64,000 nucleotides of DNA, taken from Candidatus Doolittlea endobia (GTDB lineage Bacteria; Pseudomonadota; Gammaproteobacteria; Enterobacterales; Enterobacteriaceae). Under the pieces are notes generated by a model, which saw nothing but the letters and a program-made list of their open reading frames with translations, did no database searches and was not told the origin of the DNA. A program made the position numbers and the translations under genes. Shown piece after piece: positions 6,517 to 52,448 of this stretch (its first letter is position 1; each line of letters begins with the position of its first letter). Location of the stretch: NCBI RefSeq assembly GCF_900039485.1, contig NZ_LN999833.1, positions 248,001-312,000 on the forward strand. Reading direction: 5' to 3'.

Positions 6517-7935
6517 TTATTTCTTTTTAACGTTAAGCAAATCAGTAATGGTGCCTGTATATACTTCCGCCGCTAGACCCACCGATTCATGTAGAGTAGG
6601 GTGCGCATGGATGGTCAATGCAATATCTTCTGCGTCGCAACCCATTTCAATTGCGAAACCAATTTCACCCAATAGCTCACCACCATTGGTGCCGACTACG
6701 GCGCCACCAATAATCCGATGGCTTTTTTTATCAAAAATCAGCTTAGTTATACCGTCCTTGTAATCTGAAGAAATAGCGCGCCCGGAGGCTGCCCAAGGAA
6801 ACGTAGCGACTTCATAGTTAATGTTTTGCACTTGTGCTTCTTTTTCTGTCAAGCCGACCCATGCCACTTCCGGCTCAGTATAAGCGATAGACGGAATGAC
6901 TTTAGGATTAAAATAGTGTTTCTTGCCAGCAATGACTTCCGCTGCCACGTGTCCTTCGTGTGTACCTTTGTGCGCTAACATCGGCTGGCCAATGATATCG
7001 CCGATAGCATAAATGTGCGAAACATTGGTGCGCATCTGTTTGTCGACGCGGATAAAGCCGCAATCAGTCACTTCGACCCCGGCCCGGCAGGCATCTAGAA
7101 GCTTACCGTTCGGGGAACGTCCGATGGCAACAAGCACGGCATCATAGCGTTGAGCTTCTGAAGGCGCTTGTTTCCCTTTCATGCTGACATACACGCCATC
7201 TTCCCGGGCTTCCACCGCAGTGACTTTAGTTTCTAGCATCAGGTTAAACTGTGAACTGATACGCTTAGTGAACACTTGTACCACATCTTTATCGGCAGTC
7301 GGGATAACCTGATCGAACATTTCCACCACGTCGATTTCTGAACGCAAGGCATGGTAAACGGTAGCCATTTCAAGACCTATAATTCCTCCACCCATCACCA
7401 ATAGCCGCTTTGGCACTGACGTCAGGGCGAGCGCATCAGTAGAATCCCATATGCGTGAATCAACATAGGGGATAAAAGGCAGCTGGATCGGGTGTGAGCC
7501 AGCTGCAATAATGGCATTGTCAAAAGTGACGATAGTGGTACTGTTTTCGCTTTCTACCTGAAGCGTATTAGTACTGGTGAATTTACCATAACCGTTTACC
7601 ACCTTTACCCTACGCGCTCTGGCCATACCGCATAGACCGCTTGTTAGCTGACTAACAACCTTTTCCTTCCATGTGCGCACTTTGTCGATATTGATTTGTG
7701 GTTCGCCAAAGACTATACCGTTTTTGTTCAACGCTTTAGCCTCTGTAATAACCTTAGCGATGTGTAATAATGCTTTGGAAGGAATACAGCCTACATTTAG
7801 ACAAGCTCCGCCAAGGGCGGAATAACGTTCCACCAGGAGAGTTTCTAGACCTAAATCTGCACAACGGAATGCTGCAGAATAACCTCCTGGGCCTGCCCCA
7901 AGTACCACGACTTGAGTTTTTATTTTAGTGCTCAT
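6517..7935 (-). CDS. lpd: Dihydrolipoamide dehydrogenase (E3)
   Basis: This FAD enzyme reoxidises lipoamide in pyruvate dehydrogenase and, where present, in 2-oxoglutarate dehydrogenase and the glycine cleavage system. It is 472 residues (E. coli 474). The FAD-binding GAGPGGYSAA starts near residue 13, the redox disulfide is GGACLNVGC (Cys45 and Cys50), the NAD-binding GGGIIGLE lies near residue 182, and the C-terminal HAHPTLHES holds the catalytic His445-Glu450 pair. It is the last gene of aceE-aceF-lpd, 153 nt after aceF, and is followed by a terminator. It appears fully functional. Confidence 0.98.
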   Translation of the reverse strand: MSTKIKTQVVVLGAGPGGYSAAFRCADLGLETLLVERYSALGGACLNVGCIPSKALLHIAKVITEAKALNKNGIVFGEPQINIDKVRTWKEKVVSQLTSGLCGMARARRVKVVNGYGKFTSTNTLQVESENSTTIVTFDNAIIAAGSHPIQLPFIPYVDSRIWDSTDALALTSVPKRLLVMGGGIIGLEMATVYHALRSEIDVVEMFDQVIPTADKDVVQVFTKRISSQFNLMLETKVTAVEAREDGVYVSMKGKQAPSEAQRYDAVLVAIGRSPNGKLLDACRAGVEVTDCGFIRVDKQMRTNVSHIYAIGDIIGQPMLAHKGTHEGHVAAEVIAGKKHYFNPKVIPSIAYTEPEVAWVGLTEKEAQVQNINYEVATFPWAASGRAISSDYKDGITKLIFDKKSHRIIGGAVVGTNGGELLGEIGFAIEMGCDAEDIALTIHAHPTLHESVGLAAEVYTGTITDLLNVKKK

Positions 7936-8088: not shown

Positions 8089-9843
8089 CTACATCATTAA
8101 GAGGCGAATATCAGACAACATGTTATTAATACATCTGATAAAGCGCGCGCTATCAGCGCCGTCAATAACCCTGTGGTCATAGGACAGCGACAGCGGCAAC
8201 ATCAGCCGAGGTGAGAACTCTGTACCATTCCATATTGGTTTTGTTGACGATTTTGACACGCCGAGAATCGCTACTTCCGGCGCGTTGACGATAGGCGTGA
8301 ACGCTGTTCCGCCAATACCGCCCAAGCTGGAAATAGTGAAACAGCCTCCCTGCATATCTAACGCAGTTAGTTTCCCATCACGAGCCTTTTGGGAGATCGC
8401 TGTTAGCTCGTGCGACAGCTCTAGAATACCTTTTTTATGTACATCGCGAAACACAGGTACTACTAGGCCATTCGAGGTGTCAACTGCTACGCCGATATTG
8501 ATGTATTTCTTTAACGTCAGTTTTTGAGCATCCTCTGACAAGGAGCTGTTAAAACGCGGAAATTCTTCCAGTCCCTTGGCGACTGCTTTCATGATAAACA
8601 CCAGCGGTGTGATTTTCACATTCCGCTTCTTTTTCTCGGCTTCGGTGTTTTGCTGTTTACGAAAGGCTTCCATTTCGGTGATGTCGGCTTCGTCGAACTG
8701 GGTCACATGGGGGATCGTGACCCAGTTACGGAGCAGGTTGGCGCCGGAGATTTTTTGAATCCGGCTCAGATCTACCGTTTCAATATCGCCCAATTTGCTG
8801 AAGTCCATTTTTGGCCACGGCAATAGTCCGAGCAGCGGACTGACGCCGGTCACTGATGGCACGGTCTCGGCGCGTTTAATTACATCTTTGATGTAAGCCT
8901 GAATATCTTCACGCAAGATACGTTTTTTACGCCCGGTACCTTTTACTTTCTCTAAGTTAACACCGAACTCGCGCGCTAGACGGCGAATTACCGGAGTAGC
9001 ATGTATATAGGCGTCGTTCTCAGCAAATTCATTTTTGCCGTTAGGCGATAATGAAGCGAAAGTGGCAGTAGATGCGTTTTTTTTGACGTTTGATGTTATC
9101 GTCGGTGCCACGGTTGCAGTACTTTCCGCTTCAAACACCATCATTTTTGAACCAGTGCTAATCTTATCTCCGACGTTAATGTTAATTTCTTTAACGGTAC
9201 CATCGAACGGCGCCGGCACCTCCATTGATGTTTTATCGCCTTCCACAGTAATCAGCGACTGTTCGCTCTTAACCTTGTCGCCGACCTTGACCATGACCTC
9301 GGTGACCTCCAGTGCATTGCCACCGATATCTGGAACGTGCACATCTTTTTTATTGCCGATGGATTGAATCGATGGACTCTGCGGCAACGCCGTAGACGAA
9401 GCAGCTTCCTCGCAGATCATAATAAGCGATCCAGTATTCACTTTATCACCGATATTGACCTTTACTGCTTTAATCATGCCAGAGAACGGCGCCGGCACTT
9501 CCATTGATGTTTTGTCACCCTCAATGGTAATCAGCGACTGTTCGGCCTTGACCTTATCCCCGACCTTTACTAATATCTCGGTAACTTCTACCTCATCATC
9601 CCCGATATCAGGAACGTGAATTTCTTTATTTTCTGTTGCACAGCCATCGGTGGATACAGGTTGGATCGTCAGCGCGCTGTCGGTTGTCATTATCAGCGCC
9701 TGACGAGAGGACGTTTGTATGGAGGCTTTATCGCCTTCCACAGTAATCAGCGACTGTTCGGCCTTTACCTTATCGCCTTTGCTAACCGGGGCTTCAATAA
9801 TTTTATCTCTACAGATATTCGGTACGTTCATTTCATTATCCAT
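8089..9843 (-). CDS. aceF: Pyruvate dehydrogenase E2 (dihydrolipoyl acetyltransferase), first lipoyl domain eroded
   Basis: E2 forms the core of the complex and passes acetyl groups from lipoamide to CoA. It is 584 residues, against about 630 in E. coli. Two full lipoyl domains (about residues 75-147 and 168-238) carry GDKTS lysines at 111 and 204. The peripheral-subunit-binding domain is at about 278-318, and the catalytic domain ends in DHRVIDGA (His557, Asp561). The first lipoyl domain (residues 1-60) keeps GDKAS (Lys39) but has lost much of its first strand and about 20 residues after the lysine. It lies 15 nt after aceE. Confidence 0.97.
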
Positions 9844-9858
9844 AATCTATTTTACCTT

Positions 9859-12525
9859 TTACGCCAGACGCGGATTGATTTTATCAGCATCGATGCTAAA
9901 TGTGCTGATGGCTTGCGTTACTACATCAACGCCGATATTACCGCGTTTGACCAATTCACTTAGCGCCGCTACTACCACATAGCTGGCATTCACTTCAAAG
10001 TGACAACGCAGGTTTGCTCGACTGTCGGAACGACCGAAACCATCTGTGCCTAGAACGCGGAATTCGCTGGCGGGAATAAAGTTGCGGATCTGCTCGGCAA
10101 ATAGTTTTATATAATCAGTAGACGCTACCGTGGGCGCATCGTTTAGCACAGTGGTTACATATGGCACCCTCTGCGTTTCGGTCGGATGCAGCATATTCCA
10201 GCGTTCGCAATCCTGGCCGTCTCGAGCTAGCTCAGTAAACGAAGTCACACTGTACACATCGGAAGCGACATTATAGTCTTTCGACAAGATGTGCGCCGCT
10301 TCTCGTACGTGGCGCAGAATAGCGCCGGAGCCCATGAGTTGCACTTTACCTTTACCGCCTTCCAGTGTTTCTAGCTTGTAGATCCCCTTGAGAATACCTT
10401 TTTCCGCGCCTTTCGGCATGGCTGGCATAGCGTAATTTTCATTTAACGTAGTTAGATAGTAATAGACGTTTTCTGGCTTATCGCCATACATCCTGGTTAG
10501 ACCGTCATGTATAATAACCGCGACTTCATAGGCATAAGCCGGATCATAAGAGATGCAGTTTGGAATAGTCAGCGACTGAATATGGCTATGACCGTCTTCA
10601 TGCTGCAAGCCTTCACCATTTAGAGTTGTGCGTCCCGAGGTGCCGCCGATAAGGAAACCACGCGCCTGTTGATCGCCCGCCGCCCAACACAGATCTCCGA
10701 TTCTCTGAAAACCAAACATCGAATAATAAATGTAAAAAGGAATCATTGGTAAATTATTAGAGCTATAAGAGGTCGCCGCTGCTAACCAGGAAGAAGCCGC
10801 ACCAAGCTCGTTAATCCCTTCTTGCAGTACCTGTCCTTTTTCATCTTCGCGGTAATAGGCAACCTGCTCGCGGTCCTGCGGCGTATACTGCTGACCGCTA
10901 GGATTGTAAATACCTATCTGCCGGAATAGACCTTCCATACCAAAGGTACGGGCTTCATCAGCAATAATCGGGACCAAGCGATCTTTAATCGTTTTGTTCT
11001 TCAACATCACGTTCAATACGCGGACAAAAGCGATGGTGGTGGAGATTTCTTTCTTCTGTTCTTTCAAAAGCGATGCAAAATCCTCAAGAGTCGGCAAGTC
11101 CAACGGTTCGGTGAAATCTTTCAAGCGACTCGGCAAATAACCATGAAGTGATTTTCGGCGCTCATGTAAATAAGTGTGTTCTTCGGACCCTTCTGCAAAA
11201 GTGATATAAGGCAGCGTTTCAATCTTGTCGTCTGTAATGACGCTCAAGTTGAAGCGATCGCGGAAATAACGTACTCCTTCCATGTTCATTTTTTTTACTT
11301 GGTGCGCGATATTCATACCTTCTGCAGTCACACCCATTCCGTAGCCTTTAATGGTGTGCGCTAAAATTACTACAGGCTTTCCGGTGGTTTTTTTGGCCTT
11401 TTGCAGAGCGGCATAGATCTTTTTTGGATCGTGGCCACCGCGGTCGAGCTCCCAAATCTCGTCGTCGCTCATGTTTTTCACCAGCGCAGCGGTTTCTGAG
11501 TATTTACCAAAGAAATGCTCACGTACGTAGGCGCCGTTTTTCGATTTAAAGGTCTGATAGTCACCGTCGACAGTTTCGTTCATTAGTTGAATTAGCTTGC
11601 CAGAAGTATCTTTGCGTAGCAGTTTATCCCAGCGGCTTCCCCAGACTACCTTAATTACTTCCCATCCGGCGCCGCTAAATACGCCTTCTAATTCGCTAAT
11701 GATCTTGCCATTACCGTTAACGGGACCGTCTAAACGCTGAAGGTTACAATTAACGATGAATATCAAGTTGTCCAGCTGCGCGCGAGTCGCAACAGTGATA
11801 GCGCCTTTAGATTCCGGCTCATCCATTTCACCATCGCCTAGAAATGAGTACACAGTCTGATTACTAGTGTTTTTCAGTCCCCGGTGGTGCAGATATTTTA
11901 AAAATTTTGCTTGATAGATGGCGCTTATCGGACCGAGGCCCATCGATACTGTCGGAAATTGCCAGAAATCTGGCATCAGCTTCGGATGCGGGTAAGATGA
12001 TAACCCCTTGCTATGTACTTCCTGGCGGAAATTGTTCATTTGATCTTCGCTTAGACGGCCTTCAAGGAAGGCACGAGCGTATATACCTGGAGAAATATGC
12101 CCCTGGAAATAAACCAGATCGCCGCCGTCTTTGTCATTACGCGCGCGAAAGAAATGGTTAAAGCATACTTCATAAATGGTGGCAGACGACTGAAATGACG
12201 CGATATGTCCGCCTAGTTCTACATTTTTCTTCGATGCGTGCAGAACTGTCATTACAGCGTTCCAGCGAATAGCAGAACGAATGCGGCGCTCTAATTCTAA
12301 ATTGCCAGGATACGTAGGCTCTTCCTCAACTGGAATCGTGTTGATGTAGTTTTGCCCATCAGCGCCTTGCGCAAGGCTGACCCCACTTTTACGCGCTTTA
12401 TCCATCACTTGCTCAATTAGGAATTGAGCGCGTTCAATACCTTCTTCACGGATAACCGATTCGATCCCCTGGAGCCAGTCACGTGTTTCGATCGGATCCA
12501 CGTCATTATAAAAACGTTTTGACAT
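9859..12525 (-). CDS. aceE: Pyruvate dehydrogenase E1 (homodimeric)
   Basis: E1 decarboxylates pyruvate with thiamine diphosphate and acetylates the lipoyl domains of AceF. It is 888 residues (E. coli 887) and conserved along its length. The thiamine-diphosphate motif runs from GDGEMDEPES (near residue 230) to NCNLQRLDGP. The N-terminal segment that docks on E2 is intact (SKRFYNDVDPIETRDWLQ). It is the first gene of the operon. pdhR, which precedes aceE in E. coli and represses this operon, is absent upstream; a pdhR-like relic lies at about 39.5 kb instead. Confidence 0.98.
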   Translation of the reverse strand: MSKRFYNDVDPIETRDWLQGIESVIREEGIERAQFLIEQVMDKARKSGVSLAQGADGQNYINTIPVEEEPTYPGNLELERRIRSAIRWNAVMTVLHASKKNVELGGHIASFQSSATIYEVCFNHFFRARNDKDGGDLVYFQGHISPGIYARAFLEGRLSEDQMNNFRQEVHSKGLSSYPHPKLMPDFWQFPTVSMGLGPISAIYQAKFLKYLHHRGLKNTSNQTVYSFLGDGEMDEPESKGAITVATRAQLDNLIFIVNCNLQRLDGPVNGNGKIISELEGVFSGAGWEVIKVVWGSRWDKLLRKDTSGKLIQLMNETVDGDYQTFKSKNGAYVREHFFGKYSETAALVKNMSDDEIWELDRGGHDPKKIYAALQKAKKTTGKPVVILAHTIKGYGMGVTAEGMNIAHQVKKMNMEGVRYFRDRFNLSVITDDKIETLPYITFAEGSEEHTYLHERRKSLHGYLPSRLKDFTEPLDLPTLEDFASLLKEQKKEISTTIAFVRVLNVMLKNKTIKDRLVPIIADEARTFGMEGLFRQIGIYNPSGQQYTPQDREQVAYYREDEKGQVLQEGINELGAASSWLAAATSYSSNNLPMIPFYIYYSMFGFQRIGDLCWAAGDQQARGFLIGGTSGRTTLNGEGLQHEDGHSHIQSLTIPNCISYDPAYAYEVAVIIHDGLTRMYGDKPENVYYYLTTLNENYAMPAMPKGAEKGILKGIYKLETLEGGKGKVQLMGSGAILRHVREAAHILSKDYNVASDVYSVTSFTELARDGQDCERWNMLHPTETQRVPYVTTVLNDAPTVASTDYIKLFAEQIRNFIPASEFRVLGTDGFGRSDSRANLRCHFEVNASYVVVAALSELVKRGNIGVDVVTQAISTFSIDADKINPRLA

Positions 12526-14184: not shown

Positions 14185-16473
14185 ATGAGCTACCAGGTTC
14201 TTGCCCGTAAGTGGCGTCCGCAAACATTTATCGATATAGTAGGCCAGGAGCATATCCTAGCGGCGCTAGCAAACAGCTTTTCATTGGGTAGGATTCATCA
14301 CGCCTATCTTTTCTCTGGTACTCGCGGTGTGGGTAAGACTACGATTGGCCGTCTTTTGGCTAAAGGGCTAAACTGCCACACAGGTATCACTGCAACCCCT
14401 TGCAGACAATGCGACAACTGCCGGGAAATCGAGCAGGGCCGCTTTGTCGATTTAATTGAAATTGATGCTGCCTCGCGTACTAAAGTTGAAGATACCCGCG
14501 AGCTGCTGGATAACGTTCAATATATTCCGGCACGCGGCCGATTTAAGGTCTATCTGATCGACGAAGTACATATGCTATCCTGCTACAGCTTTAATGCTTT
14601 ACTGAAAACCCTTGAGGAACCGCCAGCGCATGTCAAGTTTTTACTGGCTACTACCAATCCGCAAAAACTTCCGGTGACTATCCTGTCCCGCTGTCTGCAA
14701 TTCCATTTAAAGGCTCTTGACGTTAAACAAATCCGTAATCATCTGTCCTACGTCTTGCAGAAAGAACAGATCATGGCCGAACCTCATGCGCTACAAATGT
14801 TAGCCAGTGCTGCTGATGGTAGTATGCGAGACGCTCTCAGTCTAACCGACCAAGCCATCGCCACAGGTCTAGGGGAGGTAAGCGATGAAGCGGTCAGTCT
14901 AATGCTCGGGACACTCAATACAGAGCAGCCGCTGGCGCTTATCGAAGCATTGGCCGAGGCCGACGGTGGCGCGATAATGGCGACACTCGCGCAATGCGCT
15001 GCTCGCGGTATGGACTGGGACAATCTGCTTGTTGAGATGCTTTCTTTACTACATCGCCTTGCGTTGGGACAGTTAGCGCCTGACCAGTTAAATTCTGAAG
15101 ACAACCCGGCTAGCAAACTGCGTTTGCGCGACCTGGCCCGGCGTTTACCGCCTTCCGATCTGCAACTATACTACCAGGCTCTAATTATCGGACGCAAAGA
15201 GCTGCCTTTTTCACCGGATCCACGGATAGGAGTGGAAATGACTCTGCTGCGCGCGCTGGCGTTTCGTCCTTCCGCTGTAGAAAAAATGACCACTGTCGCT
15301 AGCATGGAAAAAAAAACGGCTGAATTCGACGAAAACAGACACTGCGACAGCAGTGCTACCGGTGCGTCTGGCGCCAAACGGGCACTGACGCAATTAAAGC
15401 TTGATAATACCAGACGCGCCGGGGCAAATATAGCGACGCCAGCGCAAGACGTACCAAAATCGTCTTCTTTTTCCAGTGGAGTCAATGTTGGCAAGCGCCT
15501 GATAACGGTGAAGAAGCAAAATACGCTTACTGCTCCGGTATCAGGATCGTGGACTGATTGGCAGACCACGTTGCCTAGCTGTCCTCAGTCTAGCTGGATC
15601 GATATAGATAAAGAGCATTTTAGGCTAATTTATACTGGTAGCGACTGTAATGATGAAAAAGCAGAGAGCGATAGGCAAGACATCGTGTTGAAGTCTGAAC
15701 AAGAAGCATCTCGAGCACTTTTTTTACCATCTTCAAGTAGTGATAGTCCGCTTCCGGATGCGACTACGCAATTTTTGCAGGCTCGCATTGCCCTGTTAAA
15801 GTGGCAAAAGATTAAAAAAACAAAAAAGTGCGGACAGGCACCGGCACGGCAGAAGACTACTGTTCCTTCGCTAGAACGGCCGGCTAGTGCGAGCGAACGT
15901 ACGAAGCAGCAACACGATGACGCTGGAAAGAAAGAGCCGATGAAAACCCCGCGACCGGAGGTGTATGGTTGGCGTGTCACTCAACAACCAGAGGTAGCCT
16001 CGAAGCCGGTGACGACCACGAAATCGCTGCGTACAGCGCTAGAGCATGCAAAAACATCAAAGTTAGCATTGTGCTTAGCCGAAGAGTCGCTGACGCGCGA
16101 TCCTTGGGCAGCGCAAGTAAATCGTTTGGTGGTGCCCAAAGTAGCACAACAACTAGCTTTAAACGCCTGGAAAGAGGATTTGGCTCCAGGCAAAATTTGT
16201 TTGCACCTGCGCGCCTCTCAGCGTCATTTAAATTCGGCTTCAGCGCAAAGCGCTCTGTGCACCGCGTTGAGCGACGTCTTTGGCGCGTCGATTGACTTGA
16301 CCATAGTGGAAGATGATAATCTGACAATGAAAACGCCATTAGAATGGCGACAGGAAATTTATGAAGAGAAGCTGATTCGGGCCAAGAAAGCGATTTTGCA
16401 TGATGCTCACATTCAAGTGCTACAAAGTTTTTTCGATGCCGAGCTAGATGAAGATAGCATCCGACCCGTATAA
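14185..16473 (+). CDS. dnaX: DNA polymerase III tau/gamma subunits
   Basis: DnaX is the clamp-loader ATPase; full-length tau also couples the polymerases to DnaB helicase. It is 762 residues, longer than E. coli tau (643). Walker [10 protein letters not shown] is near residue 45, zinc cysteines are in CRQCDNC, and the Walker B-like DEVHML is near residue 126. The extra length lies in the poorly conserved linker (about 360-540). The C-terminal polymerase-binding domain ends [11 protein letters not shown] as in E. coli. Slippery heptamer A AAA AAG is at 15822-15828, at nearly the same distance from the C-terminus as in E. coli. It is followed by ybaB. Confidence 0.98.
15822..15828 (+). promoter_or_regulatory. 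dnaX: dnaX programmed -1 frameshift heptamer
   Basis: A AAA AAG is positioned so that the zero-frame codons are ACA AAA AAG (codons 546-548). A -1 slip leads through 19 further codons to TAG at 15885-15887, giving a gamma-like product of about 567 residues. In E. coli gamma ends two codons after the slip, so the tail here is longer. I saw no clear upstream Shine-Dalgarno-like stimulator. Confidence 0.75.
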
Positions 16474-39251: not shown

Positions 39252-39479
39252 TATTACATAGCCTACCTTTACTTTTGTTGCATTAGTTTACTCGCTCACA
39301 CTAGAAAAAAATGAATGCATTTTATGATACGGAATAATATCGATGCTAGACTGCACGCCGAACACTTTATAATTGACAATGTGCTGTTGTTTAATATCAG
39401 GTAAATATTTTTACTTTCACATTATATACTATAAACTATTGATATTTTAAATTAAAGTTATTGGATCTCATAGAATAAC

Positions 39480-39843
39480 AGTTGAAATATTTCTCCTTTT
39501 TATGAAGGAGACCATCCGTCAATTAAAAACTACAGGTCTGCTGCTGAGCAGACAGGTTGAAGGGATGTTTGTGCAAAGTAATTTATGAAACGCTTTAGTG
39601 AGCTGCTGACTTGAAGTATTAACGAAGCATTTTGAATCGCAAGATACCTATGAAAATAGATCTTTTCTTGAAGGAATGACACCTATTAATGTGCTACGCG
39701 GTAGCAAGTAGGATTTCAAGCATCTCCGTGAATGCCATCAGGAAATTGCGGTAGCACATCTCCATTTGGAGTTCATTGAGAAAATATTGTTGAACTTAAG
39801 CTGAGAATATAATCATCAACGTCTTTCGCAACACAAGAATTAA
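39480..39843 (+). pseudogene. pdhR: Truncated pdhR-like GntR regulator relic
   Basis: PdhR is the pyruvate-sensing repressor of the aceEF-lpd operon. One plus-strand frame from 39502 reads KETIRQLKTTGLLLSRQ, then GMFVQSNL before an in-frame TGA (39586-39588), RSFLEGMTPINVLRGS, LRECHQEIA and finally AHLHLEFIEKILLNLS. These match E. coli PdhR (REAIQRLEAKGLLLRRQ; GTFVQSSLW; ALEGIAAYYAALRST; SHRHLAFIEEILLDRS) in the same order. The first TGA replaces a conserved Trp codon. A large in-frame internal deletion and several stops remain in one frame. Another GntR/FadR-family member cannot be fully excluded. Confidence 0.75.
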
Positions 39844-40665
39844 CCTTCCTGAAACGGCGGTCACGCGGCAATAGAAGCTATAAGCCTGTCTTCGTGTCTT
39901 CTGACAAACCAAGCATAGAAGGAAAAGCGGTTTTCACTAAACCAAGATAAATCAGGAACACAAGAATATGGTTTCGATCGAAACACGCGCTTGGCTACAG
40001 ACACATCTTGTAATGACAGTTCTTGCTTATTGTTTAAAACGCACCTTTTCTAGCATATACACCTACGTTTCTTTCGTCCGAAGCTGATGCCGGAGCTCTG
40101 AAGTTTCCGAAGGTGTCCGATAAGTCTCGCCAGATAAGTATTATTTATTCAGGAAAAGTTCCTAAAATATTTTCCCCACTAAGTACCGAATCCCGATCCC
40201 CAATGTGACTCAAAAGTATTACCCTAGTAAAGGGTGACAGTTCGTTGCCGGCGGACGCTCGGAAACTGACGTTGCAGAAGAATATCCAGGCATAACGATT
40301 AATATTACGAACAACATAATAGTTTCAGCGTTTCGCGATGTGAATTAAGACATATCTTGTCGAGCTATCGCACAAGCGAACGGTGTTTTTTTAAAAGCCC
40401 TGTGCCAATACGCTGACTGTACCGATGGTACCGATACATTGGTAGGGAAAATGTTTCAGGTGGAAAGATACATGAAAAGATCGTTTGCTAGAATATGACT
40501 GTACACTACTATCAGTAAATCTAAGTCATGACTTTATCTATTCAGTATCTTGTCATATATGGAATCGGATAACATAAATAATTACTTCTGAGTATACTTA
40601 AAATCAGAGAGTAATGGCAATGAAGAAACTGCGCCTTTTCCCGCTTGAAATAAGCAATTCTGCAC
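39844..40665. other. Gene desert upstream of rplU
   Basis: No gene. ispB, which is divergent from rplU in E. coli, is not visible. A partial copy of repeat H is near 40500-40530 (CAGTAAATCTAAGTCATGAC). Confidence 0.5.
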
Positions 40666-40694
40666 TTGTCTTTAGTGAAAATCTTGTGTATAAT
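40666..40694 (+). promoter_or_regulatory. Likely sigma-70 promoter of rplU
   Basis: -35 TTGTCT (40666-40671), a 17-nt spacer and a perfect -10 TATAAT (40689-40694), about 75 nt before the rplU start. Confidence 0.75.
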
Positions 40695-40768
40695 TCGAAT
40701 TCTTTCGTAAATATTTATAGCATGCTCCAAACAATTATAAGTTAAGCGTGCGGAAAGCGGAGTTTGTT

Positions 40769-41080
40769 ATGTATGCTGTTTTCCAAAGTGGTGGTAAACA
40801 ACATCGGGTAAGCGAAGGTCAAATCATTCGTCTCGAAAAGCTAGATGTCATAGCGGGTGAAACAGTTAGATTTGAACAAATTATCTTGATTGCTAGTAGC
40901 GAAAGCATTCAGATCGGAAGTCCTTTCGTGAACGGCGGTAAGGTCACGGCAAAAGTCATGGCTCACGGTCGCGGTGATAAAGTAATGATTGTCAAAGTTC
41001 GACGCCGTAAGCACTTCCGTAAACATCAAGGCCACCGTCAAGGGTTCACTGACGTTAAAATCACCAGTATTTGTGCTTAA
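40769..41080 (+). CDS. rplU: 50S ribosomal protein L21
   Basis: L21 binds 23S rRNA in the large subunit. At 103 residues it has the E. coli length, starts [18 protein letters not shown] and ends in a basic [17 protein letters not shown] segment. I chose the ATG at 40769 because GGAG lies 6 nt upstream; the in-frame GTG at 40748 adds unrelated residues. rpmA (L27), which follows rplU in most bacteria, is not next to it here, nor are yhbE and obgE. Confidence 0.97.
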
Positions 41081-41680
41081 CATGCGACTTTACACATAAA
41101 AAAACTACTTAATCAAAAGTGAAGTTCCGTTCGTCATCGTTTTTCATGGCTTAAAGAAACGGCTCCTATCTTCCTTTCCTAATAAATTTTTCCGTTTTCA
41201 TTACCAAAGAGAAGCTCCGCAAATAGGTTCGGAGATTTTACTTTTAGAACGCACTCCTAAGTGCCATGAAGCGAAGCATTGTCATTCAGCTGTCGTCGAT
41301 ATGACTATAATTTTAAGTTTACATATTGGACTGTGACAGACTCCAAAATTCAACACAATTGCATTAATAAATTTTCCTTATAATGTGACATCCCTAGGTA
41401 CTGCCAAAGACCTGCTGAAACAGCAGGAGACATTGTACAACCGTAAACTGGAATGTCACGCAGTTGGGGCCGAGTTTACCGAATGCAAAAACCACTGTTC
41501 TTTTCTTTCAGGGCCCAGGCGAATAATCAATAGATTATTTTACAACCATGCCACACTGATTCACCTTCTCTGTCCGAGTAACCCTGCACGTTTCTCATAC
41601 CTGTATGCTGCCATAGTTCTCATCAAACCAGTCACAACTGATTTGCCTGTAAACCAAGGTAGCTAATATAGTCCAGACCG
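41081..41680. other. Non-coding stretch between rplU and ispF
   Basis: No rpmA is visible. A plus-strand frame at 41385-41520 (LLKQQETLYNRKLE) is coding-like but unassigned. A truD relic on the minus strand (truD follows ispF in E. coli) is possible but not convincing. Confidence 0.45.
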
Positions 41681-42160
41681 TCAGTCATGAAGTCTGACTA
41701 GTAACGCCACCGCCTCGCAGGCAATGCCTTCACCGCGACCGATAAAGCCTAATAGTTCAGTAGTAATCGCTTTGACATTGACGTCATCTATACAGCAATT
41801 AAGATCTTTTGAGATATTCACGCGCATTTTCGGAATGTGCGGCGCCATCTTTGGTGCTTGGGCAATAATGGTAATATCCAGATTACCCAAACGATAGCCT
41901 GTAGAAGCGATCCGGCGCCAGGTTGTGCGCAATAATGCGCGACTATCGGCTCCTTTGAAAACCGGATCGGTATCTGGAAACAATGTGCCAATATCGCCCA
42001 GCGCAGCAGCACCAACTAAGGCATCGGTGACAGCATGCAGGACAACGTCAGCATCGGAATGCGACAGCAAACCTTGTGGGTAAGGGATACACACGCCGCC
42101 GATGATCAGCGGGCCTGCGCGGCCAAATTTATGCACGTCAAAGCCATGTCCGATGCGCAT
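41681..42160 (-). CDS. ispF: 2-C-methyl-D-erythritol 2,4-cyclodiphosphate synthase IspF
   Basis: IspF cyclises the CDP-methylerythritol phosphate intermediate in the MEP isoprenoid pathway. It is 159 residues, the normal length. Metal ligands Asp8 and His10 (GFDVHKF) and the [15 protein letters not shown] segment, with [12 protein letters not shown] following, are present. The C-terminus has the [17 protein letters not shown] motif. ispD, normally directly upstream, is absent and an IS1-type relic lies there instead. Confidence 0.97.
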
Positions 42161-42239
42161 TCACTCGCTCCTTGTATTAAAGTCTATCATTACAAGATGG
42201 AAAATATTGTTATTGATGTTATTTATCTTTGTTGTAGTG

Positions 42240-42420
42240 GAGGCCAATGAAATTCGACGTGATAGTCATACGGCATCGGGCGATCAACGCTACATTTGTA
42301 AACTCTGTTCAAAAACGTTCCGCTGCATTTATGTTGTCGAGGTGTTCAGCCAGATTATCGTCGCTATGGCAATGAATAATTTCGAATATAAAAATACCGT
42401 ATGAGTATTAAAGATTCTTA
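42240..42420 (+). mobile_element. Remnant of an IS1-family element (insA)
   Basis: The plus-strand frame reads SHTASGDQRYICKLCSKTF (about 42262-42320), matching the InsA zinc-ribbon segment TAGHQRYLCSHCRKTW, and then IIVAMAMNN followed by KNTV, a stop and VLKI. InsA has IIDMAMNG and, later, a conserved helix-turn-helix. Cys residues are kept but the reading frame is broken and no terminal repeats or insB are visible. It is a fossil of a transposase near the ispF start. Confidence 0.6.
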
Positions 42421-42972
42421 TATATATCAATTACCCTAAACAAATCGCCGACGGACTTAATGCTAAAAGCAATTAGATACTATACAGAATATAGACACCC
42501 TACTAGTACATTTTATGCTTAAAATCACATAAAAACAAACTTTTACTCAATCCACAGATGCTACAAAAATTATTAATATTGTTCAGTGCATTTAGCATAT
42601 AACATGACTTTACTGATGTTTAGCCAATTTATACAATCTTGTCAAAATACACTTAGTGGATAGAGCAATATTTACTGGAAGTGACGCGTTCATCTCAAAC
42701 GTTTTGCTCGTAAACTATTTGCTTTCAAAATTATAAACGATACGCGACAAGAGCATCAGTTGGCACTAGATCATAATGTGAGTCTTAAATATACCATTAT
42801 TAGTATTTTATATCATGACGACATCACTTCAATAAGAAATACTCCATCACGGTCCTTGTTTTTGGCCGAACGGATAAGTAAAATCGTGCGTCATTTTTCG
42901 ACTTATACTCCTTGCTTCCATGGGCTGTGTTAACCATGACAGGAAGCTGAATAATCCGTAAGGAGCAACTCT
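42421..42972. other. Non-coding stretch before rpsF
   Basis: No gene. Contains repeat H copy 2 (42602-42820). The rpsF promoter lies in the last part but was not resolved. Confidence 0.5.
42602..42820 (+). repeat. Dispersed AT-rich repeat H, copy 2
   Basis: Shares ordered blocks with 4107-4326 and 48876-49080: ACATGACTTTACTGAT, CACTTAGTGGATAGAG, CAAACGTTTTGCTCGTAAAC and TATTTGCTTTCAAAATTATA, then a weak end block near 42800. Confidence 0.55.
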
Positions 42973-43368
42973 ATGCGTCATTACGAAATTGTTTTTATAG
43001 TTCACCCTGATCAAAGCGAACAGGTTGCTAGCATGATTGAACGTTACAGCGCTTTGATTACTGATGCTAAAGGCCAAATTCATCGCCTGGAAGACTGGGG
43101 ACGTCGTCAGCTAGCTTACCCGATTAATAAGCTGCACAAAGCACACTATGTGTTAATGAACATAGAAGCACCAAAAAAAGTGATTGATGATCTGGAAATA
43201 GCTTTCCGCTTTAATGACGCAGTTATCCGTAACATGATTATGCGTGTTAAGCACGCGGTAACTGAACCATCTCCGATGGTTAAAACAAAAGATGAACGTC
43301 ATGAACACCGTGAAGATTTCGCTACTGAAACTAATGAAGATGTTGATGCTGGAGATATTGAAGAGTAA
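42973..43368 (+). CDS. rpsF: 30S ribosomal protein S6
   Basis: S6 binds the central domain of 16S rRNA together with S18. It is 131 residues (E. coli 131 before glutamate tailing). The fold segment [18 protein letters not shown] and [18 protein letters not shown] are conserved, and the tail is acidic. AAGGAG precedes the ATG. It starts the rpsF-priB-rpsR cluster, which normally also includes rplI. Confidence 0.98.
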
Positions 43369-43371
43369 TCG

Positions 43372-43924
<553 letters not shown>

Positions 43925-44406
43925 TCGGTCAGTGTATACCAGAAAATTTGCTCACAAGATATAGGGCTATAATATTTTCGTCAATACGATAGCTACGTAG
44001 TGATTTTGGAGGCAAGAACAGGTTTGGCAAGATCTGCCGCTCAACGTGTTGTATTAGATAAGCTGATGGCCAGTGGTCATTATAATTGAATTTAAAGATC
44101 AGCATCGGCTGCTTGATGGCTTCGGATAATCGGCATAATAAACACTGATTGTATTGTATTGCCTAGACAAAACAGAACGAGGCTTTATCAACGCATTAGC
44201 GTTTATAAATTAAACTGCTAATTTCCACTACTCGCAATTGCCACAATGCACAATGAATGTTAGAGCTGTTGTCAAAAGGTCAAGACAAGTGTTAGTTGTT
44301 CTTTTTTATAAAACAAAAAGAACCGCATAGTTTAAGTTTAATGAACTGTTCTTAAAAATTTTATTTTATGACGACAGAACTTCTAAGTCGTTGAGAGGAT
44401 AAGATA
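43925..44406. other. Expanded gap between rpsR and rplI
   Basis: No gene. A plus-strand frame at about 44020-44090 (ARSAAQRVVLDKLMASGHYN) is coding-like but unassigned. Repeat R copy E is at 44262-44323. This separates rplI from the normally tight operon. Confidence 0.5.
44262..44323 (+). repeat. Dispersed repeat R, copy E, with terminal hairpin
   Basis: Reads AGCTGTTGTCAAAAGGTCAA, then GACAAGTGTTAGTTGTTCTTTT. The tail forms a perfect 9-bp inverted repeat (GTTCTTTTT at 44298-44306 with AAAAAGAAC at 44315-44323). Confidence 0.7.
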
Positions 44407-44856
44407 ATGCAAGTTATTCTACTTGATAAAGTTGCCAACTTGGGTAGGCTAGGTGATCAAGTTAACGTAAAGTCAGGTTATGCTCGTAACTTCCTGTTAC
44501 CGAAAGGTAAAGCTGTGCTGGCTACCAAGGAAAACGTGGAATGTTTCGAAGCGCGACGCGCTGCATTGACAGCTAAGTTAGCGGAACTTCAGGCTGAGGC
44601 AGAAGCGCGCGCCGAGAAAATAAATCAACTAGGCAGCGTCATCATTACGTCTAAAGCAGGCGACGAAGGTAAGCTATTCGGCTCTATTGGCGCTCGCGAC
44701 ATTGCTGGTGCGATCACTGCCGCTGGCGTTAACGTCGCTAAAAGCGAAGTACGTTTAAATGGTGTTCTGCGCACGACCGGTAACCATAATGTTAGTATTC
44801 AGGTGCACAGCGATGTTTTCGCTACCCTGAAAGTGGTAATTATTACAGAAACTTAA
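44407..44856 (+). CDS. rplI: 50S ribosomal protein L9
   Basis: L9 bridges the L1 stalk region and helps keep the reading frame. It is 149 residues, as in E. coli. The N-terminal domain ([20 protein letters not shown]), the long connecting helix rich in Ala, Glu and Lys, and the C-terminal rRNA-binding domain are complete. AGAGGA upstream gives a good ribosome-binding site. It probably has its own promoter because of the expanded gap behind rpsR. Confidence 0.98.
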
Positions 44857-45200
44857 TTATATAATTATGTGAACCGCTTAGTCGTTTGACTATCCTAGAT
44901 ACGAGCAAGAACGGAGACGCTTTTATCAAGGTACTCAACTACAGGCATGGATCAATCTATCGTCTCGACGATATAGCAACGTAGGTTCTGGGTGCAAAGA
45001 CGCAATTTTGGTGTCGACCTTTAGTATATAGCTGAAGTTATTATCCGATGTGAAATAAGTAACGAGCCCTTGCGCCTCTTTTGAGGCGGCAATATAGCAA
45101 GATATCTTTTTCGTTTTCTTGACTACCTGATTAACGGTACAATTTCCCATATGCTATCATACTATACCTGTTAGATGTAGTGTTGTCCAAGCAACTGTTA
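44857..45200. other. Non-coding stretch between rplI and speG
   Basis: Nothing recognised on either strand. Confidence 0.4.
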
Positions 45201-45806
45201 TCATGTCCGCTCGGACATTGTGTGACCGGCATCTCTGTCATGTCCGGACTCAAGCTCACGCGCCGCAGCAAGAGCGTTTTGATATTCGTGTTGGAATAGG
45301 CACATCCGCAACGTATTGCGATATTGGCCATTGATAAAAAACTCTTGCAGCAAAACCCCTTCTTGCTTGAAGCCCATCTTAGTATAGATGTGGATGGCTT
45401 TCGTATTTTCTTCGTCAACAATTAAATACAATTTATGCAGATTAAGAACCATAAAACCGAAATTCAGCGCTAAATGCGTTGCAACGCTAGCGTAGCCTTT
45501 ACCCTGATGCTCAGGTGCCACTAAAATGGAAAACTCGGCACGCCGATGAATATGATAAATATCTACCAGCTCGACCAGTCCAACGCTTACGCCTAGTTTG
45601 TCAATGATAAACCGGCGCTCGCTAGTATTATGAATATTTTTTTGATAAAGATCTTTTAATTCTACATACGCTTCATGCGGCTCTTCAAACCAGTACCGCA
45701 TCATCATTTCATTATTATTTAGTTGATGAATAAAATACAGATCCTCACGTTCTAATGGACGGAGTTTAATATGATGATCCTCTGAATCTTGTCTTGATGG
45801 TTTCAT
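45201..45806 (-). CDS. speG: Spermidine N-acetyltransferase SpeG
   Basis: SpeG acetylates spermidine (and spermine) with acetyl-CoA, preventing polyamine toxicity. It is a 201-residue GNAT family protein (E. coli 186), with short extensions at both ends. The start of the core reads [20 protein letters not shown], the acetyl-CoA-binding segment is [14 protein letters not shown], and the conserved [17 protein letters not shown] and [10 protein letters not shown] follow. The C-terminal 20 residues have no counterpart. All core motifs are present. Confidence 0.95.
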
Positions 45807-45865
45807 TTTGCATTCTCGAATACTTAAATTAAAACATAATAAGATTAATCAATATTCAGTTGTTT

Positions 45866-46135
45866 TTATAAAAGATTAACAATTATAACGCTAACAATAA
45901 TACCAGCGATACCAAACATTACTACGGCATCTAACCATTGTCCATATAAGAAAGCATTCACGATGACGATAAAAATGATTCCTGACCCGGACTAGCTAGC
46001 ATAAGCGATACCCACGGGTATGGGTTTTGAGGGCCATCGATAATAAAGATAAATGAGATAGCATAGTCCAACTATAACTAAAAGGAAGATATCAGTTTGC
46101 TAAAGTTCATCGAAGCCTTGAAATAAAAACATATC
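45866..46135 (-). pseudogene. Relic of an SMR-family multidrug efflux pump
   Basis: The minus-strand frame reads KPIPVGIAYAS, a stop, SGSGIIFIVIVNAFLYGQWL, then DAVVMFGIAGIIVSVIIVNL. This matches the small multidrug resistance family (EmrE: IPTGIAYAIWSGVG, FFGQRLDLPAIIGMMLI, INLL). The TAG stop falls where the conserved Trp of the WSG motif should be. The N-terminal helix with the proton-binding Glu is not readable. It could have been emrE or one of mdtI/mdtJ. Confidence 0.75.
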
Positions 46136-46344
46136 ACAGACGATCCTGAATAGGATACTTAAGCACCGAGATTAACACTTTTCTTTAATAAACAAAATAG
46201 TATATCTAATAAACATTGTTAGTATGGCATAATTGACAGCAGCATGTCTCATATACTTAAAGACTCTCACCATGAGTTAACGATAGGAACTGGTTGTCTT
46301 CTATTTTCGCTGAAAGCAGGAGCGGTTTCGAATAGCACCGAAAT

Positions 46345-46458
46345 AGGTGGAGGCTCTGTCAGCGACATCCCAACACACACGTCTCTTGCTGCAGCTGCTT
46401 CCTTCCGGACCTGACCGAGTTCACAAGGTAGTGTTGCGAGAGCACCCACGAAGCCTCC
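46345..46458 (-). ncRNA. ffs: 4.5S RNA of the signal recognition particle
   Basis: On the minus strand this 114-nt gene has the exact length of E. coli 4.5S RNA. It contains the invariant Ffh-binding core GGTCAGGTCCGGAAGGAAGC, and its ends (GGAGGC and GAGCCTCC) pair. Together with Ffh it directs inner-membrane protein targeting. Confidence 0.96.
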
Positions 46459-46610
46459 GTTGATAGCTCATTTCAACGAGCGAAGGTTATTATCAATTAA
46501 GGCTTCGGTAATTGCAAATTAGGACGATTCAAAAGTCGTTTTTCTATTATTGTATACCTAAGATTTTAGCGAAAACGCTCTATGACAAGGCGAACTGAAT
46601 ATAACGCTGA

Positions 46611-46660
46611 TTTAGAGATTGTAGTTACGAGTTAAAGGCAGGTGTTGATTGTTCTTATTT
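46611..46660 (+). repeat. Dispersed repeat R, copy F
   Basis: Reads GATTGTAGTTACGAGTTAAA, then GGCAGGTGTTGATTGTTCTT. It is one of the best-preserved copies. Confidence 0.72.
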
Positions 46661-47063
46661 AGGCAAAATGGAAGAGGTAGTTGTACATCGATTTGCTTAG
46701 ATATGCTGATATGATGTAGGGTAAGTTTTAATCAAAAAAATTTGTGCTATAAAGCAAACCAACAATGCTATGTTATGTATAATAAGAACGGTCCCGTTGC
46801 TGTTTTATGCTTAACATATCTTTTACGTGACTACCTCGTTGTTTATCAAGCCTTGTTTTATATCATCAGACGTAATACCATGCAACTTTGCAGTTGATGT
46901 TCTTTTATAGCAAAACCTATAATGACTGTATTGCTTTTCTATTCTATATATTATTTTTTCTCCGAAAACAGCAGATGCTGGTCAAAAGCGTCAGCATTGG
47001 TTCTCATCCATCTTAGTCGATATTCCAGTTTCTATCGGTTTTAGTGTGTGCGGTTCATGGTAC

Positions 47064-47089
47064 CATGACCGACAGTACTGTCGGTCATG
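47064..47089. repeat. 26-nt perfect palindrome
   Basis: The 13-nt arm CATGACCGACAGT is followed directly by its exact reverse complement. A second near-palindrome centred on CATGGTACCATG adjoins it on the left, so alternative hairpins are possible. There is no T-run, so it is not a typical terminator. Confidence 0.9.
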
Positions 47090-47862
47090 TACTGATTATC
47101 GCGTCGACTACAACTTGACTGTCCTGTCCACTAGTTAATCTACATTGAACCAAAAATGCCTCACCTTTACTATGACGGGTATGCTTACTGATTAAATGCT
47201 ATTAGTCTTAGCCACATCCTTGTCTTATGACAAGGAAAGAGATGCGTCCCATCGCTATCGTGGTATTTATCCGTAATGCAGCTTAAAACATCAGTAGCTG
47301 ATCTGCCATACACTACAATCTGAGCGCTCATAATTCCTCTTTAGATTGAGCAAAGCCTACAATAGCAGCACCATCTATCAGGCAAGCCATTTTTCTTCTT
47401 GCATCCAGTACAAGTAATAAAAGCCATGCAGCGGTATGGTAATACTCAGTGTGTCGGCTTACCGCTCCAAGCACCGGTACATAGCGATAAACAGCAGAGA
47501 AATAAAGACTTCTCTATCCTTTTTGCTCACTACATAATCGGTTATGTCCAACAACCCAAAGACCATGCATCAGTTATAAGGAATTATTTTTTATGCAATC
47601 ATCAATAGGCTTTGATATGCCCTAAAAAAGGGAGTCACAACTACAGCTATTTCGACAAATCTTTGTTGTCTAATAGAAAAACCAATATTGCAAGAGTGTT
47701 TCAAATCCTACGGTGAGCATTGCCAACTTAGTGCTGCCTTTATCGCGTTAGCAGTTTTCACTGTTCGAGATATGCCCATAGGGCGTGAAAAGCGCTAACG
47801 TTACATATGCTATTAATGCAAAAAAGTGCAGTTTATTGCATCACACCACAACATAAAATTGA

Positions 47863-47936
47863 TCGGTGAGAGAGGATTTGAACCTCCGACCCATACGTCC
47901 CGAACGTATTGCGCTACCAAGCTGCGCCACTCACCG
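47863..47936 (-). tRNA. proK: tRNA-Pro (anticodon CGG), CCA not encoded
   Basis: The minus strand gives a full cloverleaf: acceptor CGGTGAG with CTCACCG, anticodon loop TTCGGGA (anticodon CGG) and a GGTTCAAATCC T-arm. The discriminator A is followed by TCA rather than CCA, so the tail must be added by nucleotidyltransferase. It reads CCG and resembles E. coli proK. Confidence 0.94.
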
Positions 47937-49177
47937 TAATGCGAGCGCATAGTACTTCACCACGTTAGTCAATCTATTTTAAGAGATGTCATCAACTTAT
48001 AACCCCATCAGGCACATTTAACTGTGATAGCCGACAGTAATACAAAGAACTTTTAGTACCAGTTCGCTTTGAACTGCCGTCAGGCGACTTAGTATGTAAC
48101 TCAAACATACTATTAGTGTAACATATGCTATACCTCGTCGCCAGCAAATCTAAGTCCACCGGCATAATTTTTCCAGACAGTGAGGTATTAGACCCTAACG
48201 GAAGAGAAAGTTTCTCCTTTACTGGTAGAATCGTCACAAACATAGCGATAGTATTAAAGATCGGTCTTCAACATCAGTCCAGAATACTCTAAGTCAGAGC
48301 TACTAATTTTCACGCCTCTCGTTTGCGATTATCCTGTTTAAATCGTTGACATTGCTTACACTTGTTATACAAAATTTTAACTTTAAGAAGAAAATAGTTG
48401 TATGAGAAAACGTCTAATGTAAATACATAAGTTTAAAGCATACTGCTCTATTTATTGAGAATATATTGCTTACTATGTGATCAGTTGTGTCTAATAAGAA
48501 CTTATAATAAAACAGTCATGTTCAGTCATGTAAAAGTTATGTTGAATTTGATCAATAGTCTTGCGCTCTGACAGATGAGAAAGCTCATTTTTTACATGAT
48601 CATAAACATAACGTAACTAACGAGAATTGTCCTTGTGACTATAAACTATTGTGCGTCTGCTACATCGATAGATAACGACTACAACATGCAGCCAAATGCT
48701 ATTAGCATTTCGATTGGATATAACGTTTTAAATCTACTAGTATTGAAGCTAATATTAAACATAGTGACGCTATTTTAGACTCGAGTATATGCTTTTTAAA
48801 AATTAGAAGATAACCAATCAGTAAAATGTTTAGTGTTATTGTTAGGTAGTAACTGATATTGGATGATAGTGGTTACATGACTAGTACATGCCCGTTTATA
48901 AAGTTTTAGCTATGTAGTGAACATAAATATACTCAACGGATAGAATAAGAAGACCTTGAATTTACGTACTTACATTAAACGTCTTTCTTGTAAAACTGTT
49001 TGCTTTTTAAAATTAGCGATAATACATGATACGTTCATTTAATGAATATATACGCTATTACCAGTAATCTAAGTCACGGTCAATGAATCTATTTTAATAA
49101 AGCGCAGCCGATTGAAAAGCAGAGAGTTCGTCGCTCATATTCTAGTTACTACCAGTTAGGAAACAAGGAACTTCGTC
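47937..49177. other. Gene desert upstream of hinT
   Basis: No gene assigned. A minus-strand open frame at 47992-48243 (83 codons) has no recognisable relative. Repeat H copy 3 lies at 48876-49080, with partial copies at 48521-48565 and 48790-48825. Confidence 0.45.
48876..49080 (+). repeat. Dispersed AT-rich repeat H, copy 3
   Basis: Ordered blocks are ACATGACTAGTACATG, ATACTCAACGGATAGAATAA, AAACGTCTTTCTTGTAAAAC, TGTTTGCTTTTTAAAATTAG and CCAGTAATCTAAGTCACGG. All correspond to blocks in copies 1 and 2. Confidence 0.55.
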
Positions 49178-49525
49178 ATGACCGAAGAAACTATTTTCAG
49201 TAAAATTGTCAGACGGGAGATTCCCGCTGAGATTCTTTATCAGGACGATTTAGTTACCTCTTTTCGCGATATCAGACCTAAGGCACCTAGTCATATTTTA
49301 ATTGTCACAAACATACCTATCCCCACTGTTAATGATATCACCGCTGATCATGAAGCAGGACTTGGACGTTTGTTTACTGTCGCGGCAAAAATCGCCAGAC
49401 AAGAAGGCATCGCCGAAAAGGGCTACCGGTTGATCGTAAATTGCAACCACCATGGTGGTCAAGAAGTTTTTCATTTGCATATGCATCTTTTAGGAGGCAA
49501 ACCGCTTGGACCTCTGGTAACCTGA
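49178..49525 (+). CDS. hinT: Purine nucleoside phosphoramidase HinT
   Basis: HinT is a HIT-family hydrolase of AMP-phosphoramidates. It is 115 residues (E. coli 119). It begins [17 protein letters not shown] and carries the histidine-triad HLHMHLLGG near the C-terminus (about 98-106). The last few residues found in E. coli are missing. AACAAGGAA before the ATG is an adequate ribosome-binding site. It is followed, after an erased ycfL, by lpoB, as in E. coli. Confidence 0.96.
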
Positions 49526-49854
49526 TGTGCTGGGGAAACATGTGTTTAATATCTTGATATGGCGCTGTCGCTGTTTCCAGTTTGTAGTAGAGTTAACGGT
49601 GATTTCGCCCCTTATTATCAATATGCAGCAATTATCAAGTATGAATCCGGAGTGTTTACAAAGACTATAGTCCCTTAATGAGGTTATATTATCATGTTTA
49701 CTGATATGATGTGCAAAGATTGAATACTTTTCCTTTCGCTTTTATCGAAACATCTAACAGCAAAGAGAAATATAAGCGGTGAATAATAATCCGTAGTTGA
49801 AACGCATACGTGTTCTATTTATTTTTGCAATAAAGAATCAACGCCGAGTTTTTA
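49526..49854. other. Non-coding stretch at the ycfL position
   Basis: E. coli has ycfL between hinT and lpoB. Nothing recognisable remains here. Confidence 0.45.
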
Positions 49855-50436
49855 GTGAAAAAGAGAGCTTCAGTTGTCCTCGCAGCGCTGGTATTAGTTA
49901 GCTGCGCCTCCAGACAGCCTGCGCCGTCCACAACATTTATCGAATCTGTTTCTCCACAGATTTCAGTTCCGATACATCCGCCGCCAGCCACTAGCGAACC
50001 GATGCCTATACTACCGAAAATCAATACCGTAGACTGGAAGTCTAGTTTGTTACCTCTAGTACAGAAAATGTTTGCGGTAGAAGGAATCAATGACGGTAGC
50101 GTGCTGCTAGTCAACACTATGCACAATACCACACAAGGTAGCATGCAGACTAGTAAAGCTACGGCAGCGCTCACCAATCTTATTGAGAACGGCGGCGAAA
50201 AATTTCGTGTTATCGACGCTAATCAATTAAACACGGCACGTCAGACGTTAGGACTTTCCGCTAACGATAATCTGGAATCACGTAGCAAAGCGGTAGGGCT
50301 GGCCCGCTACCTCAACGCGAAATATGTGCTTTATAGCGCCGCTGTCGGCGACGTGAAACAGCCGACGCTCAATTTGCAACTGATATTAGTGCAAACCGGC
50401 GAGATTCTTTGGTCCAGTACAGGTCGAGAGGACTGA
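49855..50436 (+). CDS. lpoB: Outer-membrane lipoprotein LpoB, activator of PBP1b
   Basis: LpoB reaches from the outer membrane through the peptidoglycan to stimulate PBP1b. It is 193 residues (E. coli 213). The GTG start at 49855 gives a signal peptide with lipobox LVSC (lipidated Cys17), then a Pro/Ser-rich flexible stretch (about 23-60, shorter than in E. coli) and the globular domain with NTMHNTTQG and VLYSAAVGD. It implies that PBP1b (mrcB) is kept elsewhere in the genome. Confidence 0.94.
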   Translation: MKKRASVVLAALVLVSCASRQPAPSTTFIESVSPQISVPIHPPPATSEPMPILPKINTVDWKSSLLPLVQKMFAVEGINDGSVLLVNTMHNTTQGSMQTSKATAALTNLIENGGEKFRVIDANQLNTARQTLGLSANDNLESRSKAVGLARYLNAKYVLYSAAVGDVKQPTLNLQLILVQTGEILWSSTGRED

Positions 50437-51633: not shown

Positions 51634-51706
51634 TGACTATTAGCTCAATGGTTAGAGCAGGTGACGTATAATTGCCTGGTTACTGATTAAAGCCTAGCAG
51701 AGGAGG
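51634..51706 (+). pseudogene. Pseudo-tRNA-Ile2 (ancestral anticodon CAT)
   Basis: It aligns throughout with E. coli ileX. The D-arm reads TTAGCTCAATGGTTAGAGCA, the anticodon stem GGTGA pairs with TTGCC, and the variable and T regions follow in register. The anticodon loop reads CGTATAA (anticodon TAT) where ileX has CTCATAA. The acceptor arms (TGACTAT and AGAGGAG) no longer pair, and the T-stem has two mismatches, so it should not make a working tRNA. Confidence 0.75.
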
Positions 51707-51888
51707 ATTCTCTTTTCCGCATGAGAAGTTATCGCAAAGATTTAGTGGTACTATTTCCACTTGTTTAATTTCGCAAAGACCACTCAGTAACAGGAAAGTG
51801 CATACGTGGTTTTGTGTAACTTGTATCCCCTCTTGCGTGTATTATACAAATATCATCACCGTCATAACCGAAAACACACTCAGAAATT

Positions 51889-52448
<560 letters not shown>

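Follow-up and report, generated by a model that had tools for sequence, protein, structure and literature searches.

Probable in-frame loss of the first of three lipoyl domains of AceF in a genome-reduced, Sodalis-related bacterium

The window, by which we mean the whole 64,000-nucleotide stretch of DNA that was analysed, carries aceF flanked by aceE and lpd on its minus strand, to which all coordinates of these genes and their domains refer. The aceF gene (8089–9843) encodes dihydrolipoyllysine-residue acetyltransferase (PDH E2) in a reading frame that is uninterrupted from ATG to stop and specifies 584 amino acids. The product scores 798.5 bits against NF008814 (cut-off 722) and 784.7 bits against a second E2 profile (cut-off 552.1), which places it among the PRK11854/TIGR01348 PDH E2 proteins, and it possesses both a peripheral subunit-binding (E3-binding) domain (PF02817; residues 280–315, 8899–9006) and an acetyltransferase catalytic domain (PF00198; residues 353–584, 8092–8787). 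Immediately upstream lies aceE (PDH E1; 888 amino acids, 9859–12525; profile match), and downstream is lpd (E3, dihydrolipoyl dehydrogenase; 472 amino acids, 6517–7935), which scores 485.6 bits against TIGR01350 (cut-off 408.8). The genome amounts to 846,562 bases in two contigs, one of them of 834,734 bases, and belongs to a Sodalis-related bacterium whose genome is small and resembles those of insect symbionts. Since LipA and LipB are encoded in it along with E1, E2 and E3, the pathway has been kept. The AceF query returned a single match in its own genome, and so gave no sign of another E2 such as SucB; PF00364 there recognised three stretches of AceF and one further frame of 155 amino acids, probably AccB. 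In this genome aceF is presumably essential.

The N-terminal portion of AceF comprises two complete lipoyl domains (LDs) and what is left of a third. LD2 (residues 73–150, 9394–9627) and LD3 (residues 166–244, 9112–9348) match PF00364 over almost the full profile, at 78.8 and 75.9 bits, and are complete by alignment also, as the earlier note on this DNA had described them. The LD1 remnant (residues 1–52, 9688–9843) scores 30 bits in the profile search of its own genome, above the cut-off of 22.1, and the match covers only profile positions 15–49 of 73 and is not one to a whole domain. Its recognisable part ends at residue 52, with the motif LIM, and not at residue 60, where the earlier note had placed its limit. 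Beyond it, a shortened linker (residues 53–72, 9628–9687) leads to LD2. In the protein and codon alignments with the homolog L002 (genome G004), two residues are missing after Asp13 (Asp13/Lys14 junction, 9804/9805) and 18 between Ala49 and Leu50 (9696/9697), and the linker is shorter. An in-frame loss of about 20 residues after the lysine had been claimed; the loss is there, with a count of 18 codons (54 bp), and single and multiple events cannot be told apart. Lys39 (codon 9727–9729), which aligns with the lysine column and so occupies the lipoyl-acceptor position, is retained within EGDKAS, as claimed, and with it the hairpin motif. The missing stretch makes up much of the domain's second half, and the sandwich should for this reason not close. 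Over the same columns, LD1 has changed more than LD2 and LD3 together (P = 0.017, 0.028 and 0.029 in Fisher tests with three relatives that are not mutually independent), a difference that chance drift along AceF alone probably does not explain.

Residues 4–52 can be aligned to the first LD of E. coli AceF (chain 7b9k_A of PDB 7b9k; lipoyl domain 1qjo). As the earlier note had proposed, the structure of the N-terminus was predicted. In an AlphaFold2 model of residues 1–150, built on 11 aligned sequences, ten-residue blocks across residues 1–70 had pLDDT values of 42–46, as compared with 89–94 in the blocks of LD2, the last of which had 81. Residues 1–73 alone gave a mean pLDDT of 41.3 and a pTM of 0.20; this model is the weaker evidence, because its input alignment misplaced the LIM of the remnant against the GVV of the relatives. 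The LD1 remnant is thus not predicted to fold into a beta-sandwich (LD2 stands at about 90). Neither model gave LD1 a confident lipoyl fold.

A search of 392 genomes of the taxonomic family gave a match in 380 at E 1e-70 or better. From these we chose 91 AceF sequences whose genomes are no larger than 2.4 Mb, the window included (61 + 30); by our count 23 other small genomes that gave a match, often congeners of the sampled ones, lie outside this sample, and L183 (G162, 3.1 Mb) lies outside both it and the large-genome sample. Three intact LDs occur in none of the 91; two are present in 13 and one in 78. Eleven sequences carry one or more recognisable degraded LDs, 12 copies altogether, a copy being called degraded if it spans fewer than 65 of the 82 model positions or has no lysine at the lysine column, with domains of 3 bits or less left uncounted. 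Nine of the 12 copies have no lysine in the column (five of these span 73–77 positions) and three have it (the window, L143 and L207), although the definition itself contributes to the number of lost lysines, since full-length copies are called degraded only when they lack the lysine. Scored as intact were L138, in which Ns cover the lysine of LD1, and the second LDs of L145 (KGYKEL) and L212 (IDQKNI, 41 bits), both with a lysine in a poor motif. The 42 AceF sequences from large genomes, a biased sample consisting mostly of the best-scoring matches, have three LDs in 38 cases and two in four.

In a tree of the subunit-binding and catalytic domains, the window falls within a group (SH-aLRT 81) that we take to be Sodalis-like. 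Little is resolved inside it. Two members, L116 and L137, from genomes of 4.3 and 4.5 Mb, are among the large-genome sequences with two LDs each, so that the number of LDs varies in this group even at such genome sizes. Compared with the two intact and one degraded LDs of the window, L002, L111 and L112 all possess three intact LDs, which makes three the likely ancestral state. The best-scoring match to the window's AceF among 40 genomes searched was in G004 (5.2 Mb), at 77% identity; the genus of the window's genome and that of G004 are represented by one genome each in the comparison set. The nearest parallel to the window's LD1 is in L143 (G165, 0.9 Mb), the first LD of which is likewise a remnant that lacks the second half and keeps the lysine, but there only 9 of the 19 hairpin residues survive and a single intact LD follows. 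L140 (G049, 0.4 Mb) also has three LDs of which the first is degraded, yet in the reverse manner: its LD1 (residues 4–79) has a full-length scaffold and has lost the lysine (KGILPS). The earlier note had also called for a comparison of aceF across relatives, and no short LD1 form identical to that of the window, and common to other lineages, was found among the AceF sequences examined.

Other stages of decay were seen in this survey. In L161 (G150), residues 97–233 hold a degraded LD2 and LD3, both without lysine, behind an intact LD1, an order of loss opposite to that in the window. In three members of one genus, L172 (G226), L174 (G117) and L207 (G299), the second LD is strongly diverged (12–13 bits) and has no proper lysine motif, although in one of the three a lysine stands in the column. 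By eye it shows the hydrophobic pattern, which would fit the persistence of a spacer that is not lipoylated. L153 has 74 residues ahead of its only intact LD which the profile did not detect and which by eye resemble another remnant.

L002, L111 and L112, whose genomes measure 5.2, 3.1 and 3.7 Mb (81% and 85% complete in the latter two), served as references for dN/dS. Against these three relatives the LD1 flanks gave 0.57–0.88, versus 0.04–0.12 in LD2, LD3 and the subunit-binding plus catalytic domains; these ratios are rough, dS being saturated or nearly so in LD2. The flanks of LD1 evolve near neutrality. The lysine hairpin (residues 23–41, 9721–9777), with a dN/dS of 0.05–0.07, retains 18 of 19 residues as in the three relatives, and the hairpins of the window's own LD2 and LD3 retain 16 of 19 each. 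Relaxed selection on the extra copy, which the earlier note had suggested as a possibility, would fit the flanks; it does not describe the hairpin, whose conservation equals that seen in functional domains. If the hairpin changed as the flanks do, at most one change in 19 residues would have P = 3e-6; under a milder assumption, which discounts the divergence that flanks ordinarily show in intact domains, P = 0.006. The ratio of hairpin to flank change is 0.09 in the window's LD1, as against 0.84–1.29 in five other degraded LDs of the Sodalis-like group, itself loosely supported (L140 LD1, L143 LD1, L149 LD2, L161 LD2 and L161 LD3), where hairpin and flanks decay alike. Intact LDs of other group members range from 0.00 (L139 LD1 and L152) up to 2.19 (L147).

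Judged from their codons, exchange between the repeats at the hairpin is likely. At column 25 of the codon alignment all three window LDs have AAG, where the relatives have GAC, GAA, GAG or AGC; ACT at column 32 is found in LD1 and LD3 only; and LD2 holds LD3-like states (CTG ATT, GGT GAC). GGC GAT at columns 35–36 is common to LD1 and LD3, and since it is also present in LD1 of L116 and LD2 of L002 and L111, the donor and the direction of exchange are not settled. LD1 codons 38–39 (GCC TCC) are still of the LD1 type. In a synonymous test, with amino acids fixed, the gene's own synonymous change rates and the per-column consensus of three relatives as ancestor, the LD1 and LD3 hairpins had identical codons at 14 of 17 same-residue columns with 7.7 expected (P = 0.0015, the best of six comparisons; about 0.01 corrected). 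For LD1–LD2 and LD2–LD3 the hairpin values were P = 0.063 and 0.061, and none of the three flank comparisons showed a significant excess of identical codons (P = 0.08–0.93). An earlier pair of gene-conversion tests returned very small P values, but control regions gave P = 0.017 in one and 0.12 and 0.21 in the other. Their null treated base changes as blind to the protein, the ancestors again being the per-column consensus of three relatives. Given this looser null and the control value of 0.017, we rely on the stricter synonymous test, in which only LD1–LD3 is clear among the six. Elsewhere, LD1 and LD2 of L144 (G399) are identical at 58 of 60 bases around the lysine, and LD2 and LD3 of L140 at 59 of 60, which suggests that exchange or recent duplication occurs in other lineages too. 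A literature search for gene conversion in lipoyl domains matched only a review on antibodies.

Loss of LDs from the AceF of symbionts has been known since 2016. Manzano-Marin and Latorre (2016, PMC5013485) report the loss of one or two lipoyl domains from AceF in every Serratia symbiotica that they studied; they describe most gene diminutions in their list as common in small genomes and state, with reference to Guest et al. 1985, that one lipoyl domain is enough in E. coli. According to PMC8421416, the three LDs of E. coli E2, to be compared with the two complete domains and one remnant of the window, are able to act redundantly. Domain lengths are given as more variable in symbiont proteins in PMC4007534, the main text of which does not mention aceF. 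The window shares with the symbionts of PMC5013485 the protein and the kind of domain that is lost in genome-reduced relatives, and the explanation offered there is relaxed constraint on non-essential domains. We regard the aceF of the window as an ordinary case of a known process. As far as the available portion of that paper goes, domains are described as lost and not as half-deleted, whereas here a half-deleted domain keeps an intact lysine motif and hairpin, and it is this that is unusual.

The reading that we favour, and consider very probable, is that the first of three redundant LDs is being lost from the AceF of a genome-reduced, Sodalis-related bacterium. The claim that AceF is losing this domain and has reached an intermediate stage is borne out by the in-frame gaps, the partial PF00364 match, the near-neutral flanks and the lack of a predicted fold. 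Eighteen codons from the second half of LD1 and two from the first are gone, all in frame, since a frameshift or stop there would cost the cell the remainder of an enzyme still being maintained. LD2 and LD3 would carry acetyl transfer, and LD1 would now be a disordered N-terminal tail, probably not lipoylated. The point that runs counter to this reading is that the hairpin, with one change in 19, is not decaying. Its integrity may be due to exchange, given the codons in common with LD3 and, less clearly, LD2, or to residual selection; exchange is perhaps a partial reason and need not be the whole one. It is a real possibility, though on balance a doubtful one, that gene conversion from LD2 and LD3 alone preserved the hairpin and that LD1 is neutral overall. 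The shared AAG and ACT codons, the LD3-like state of LD2, the LD1–LD3 excess of synonymous identity and the near-identical repeats of L144 and L140 would fit; the weaker values of the other two LD pairs and the wide distribution of GGC GAT speak against it. We think that exchange has happened, but that it was the keeper of the LD1 hairpin is less certain from the sequence, because codons 38–39 are still of the LD1 type. Unlikely, in our view, is a minimal lipoyl arm, in which the scaffold has been lost and a selected hairpin is still octanoylated and lipoylated via LipB and LipA as a short flexible carrier. The low dN/dS of the hairpin amid its flanks, the hairpin-to-flank ratio relative to the five degraded LDs and the presence of lipA and lipB are consistent with such an arm, and E. 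coli LplA can accept a short designed peptide as its substrate; but natural lipoylation normally needs a folded domain and none is predicted here, the hairpin of L143 has decayed, equally low ratios are part of ordinary variation in intact domains, and exchange between repeats could yield the same pattern.

Two further readings were also weighed. Translation might start at Met52, just after the remnant, where an in-frame ATG (9688–9690) has AGG eight bases before it; the remnant would then be an untranslated leader and LD1 already absent from the protein. This is very improbable, since the upstream ATG, itself preceded by AAGG at 11 bases, lies 15 bases past the stop codon of aceE, and the hairpin is conserved as protein. 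Still less credible is an error of assembly or sequencing, which three repeated LDs might invite: codons of the LD1 type flank the gap on both sides, including CTG ATA ATG as in L111, there are many point changes outside the gap, and the frame is open.

Gradual loss of LD1 would offer a snapshot of redundant domains leaving a maintained multidomain enzyme in frame, piecemeal and in a lineage-specific order: elsewhere the lysine has gone from a full-length scaffold, while in the window the scaffold has gone and the lysine is kept. The series of 91 small-genome sequences gives a means of asking which is lost earlier, the functional residue or the fold, and whether decay is slowed when repeats exchange sequence. 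What deserves closer attention is the conserved hairpin inside a domain that has collapsed. We suggest, quite tentatively, that the tandem LDs of symbiont AceF undergo concerted evolution at the hairpin, and that an LD whose scaffold is destroyed may keep, exchange and possibly use it. If so, LD1 of the window would not be simple debris: it would serve as a minimal lipoyl arm or as a living template for the neighbouring LDs.

Two other regions of the window attracted attention. The dnaX gene (14185–16473; NF005942, 845.5 bits, cut-off 613) specifies 762 amino acids and is longer than the 655-position model, in contrast to Serratia symbiotica, for which PMC5013485 names dnaX as one of the shortened genes. 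Across about 13 kb (39252–52448) there is a single open reading frame of at least 200 amino acids (45201–45806). Rfam matches in this region are an RpsF leader (42890–42975), a small SRP RNA (46354–46450) and a tRNA (47863–47936), from which we conclude that the remainder consists of short genes or decayed sequence.
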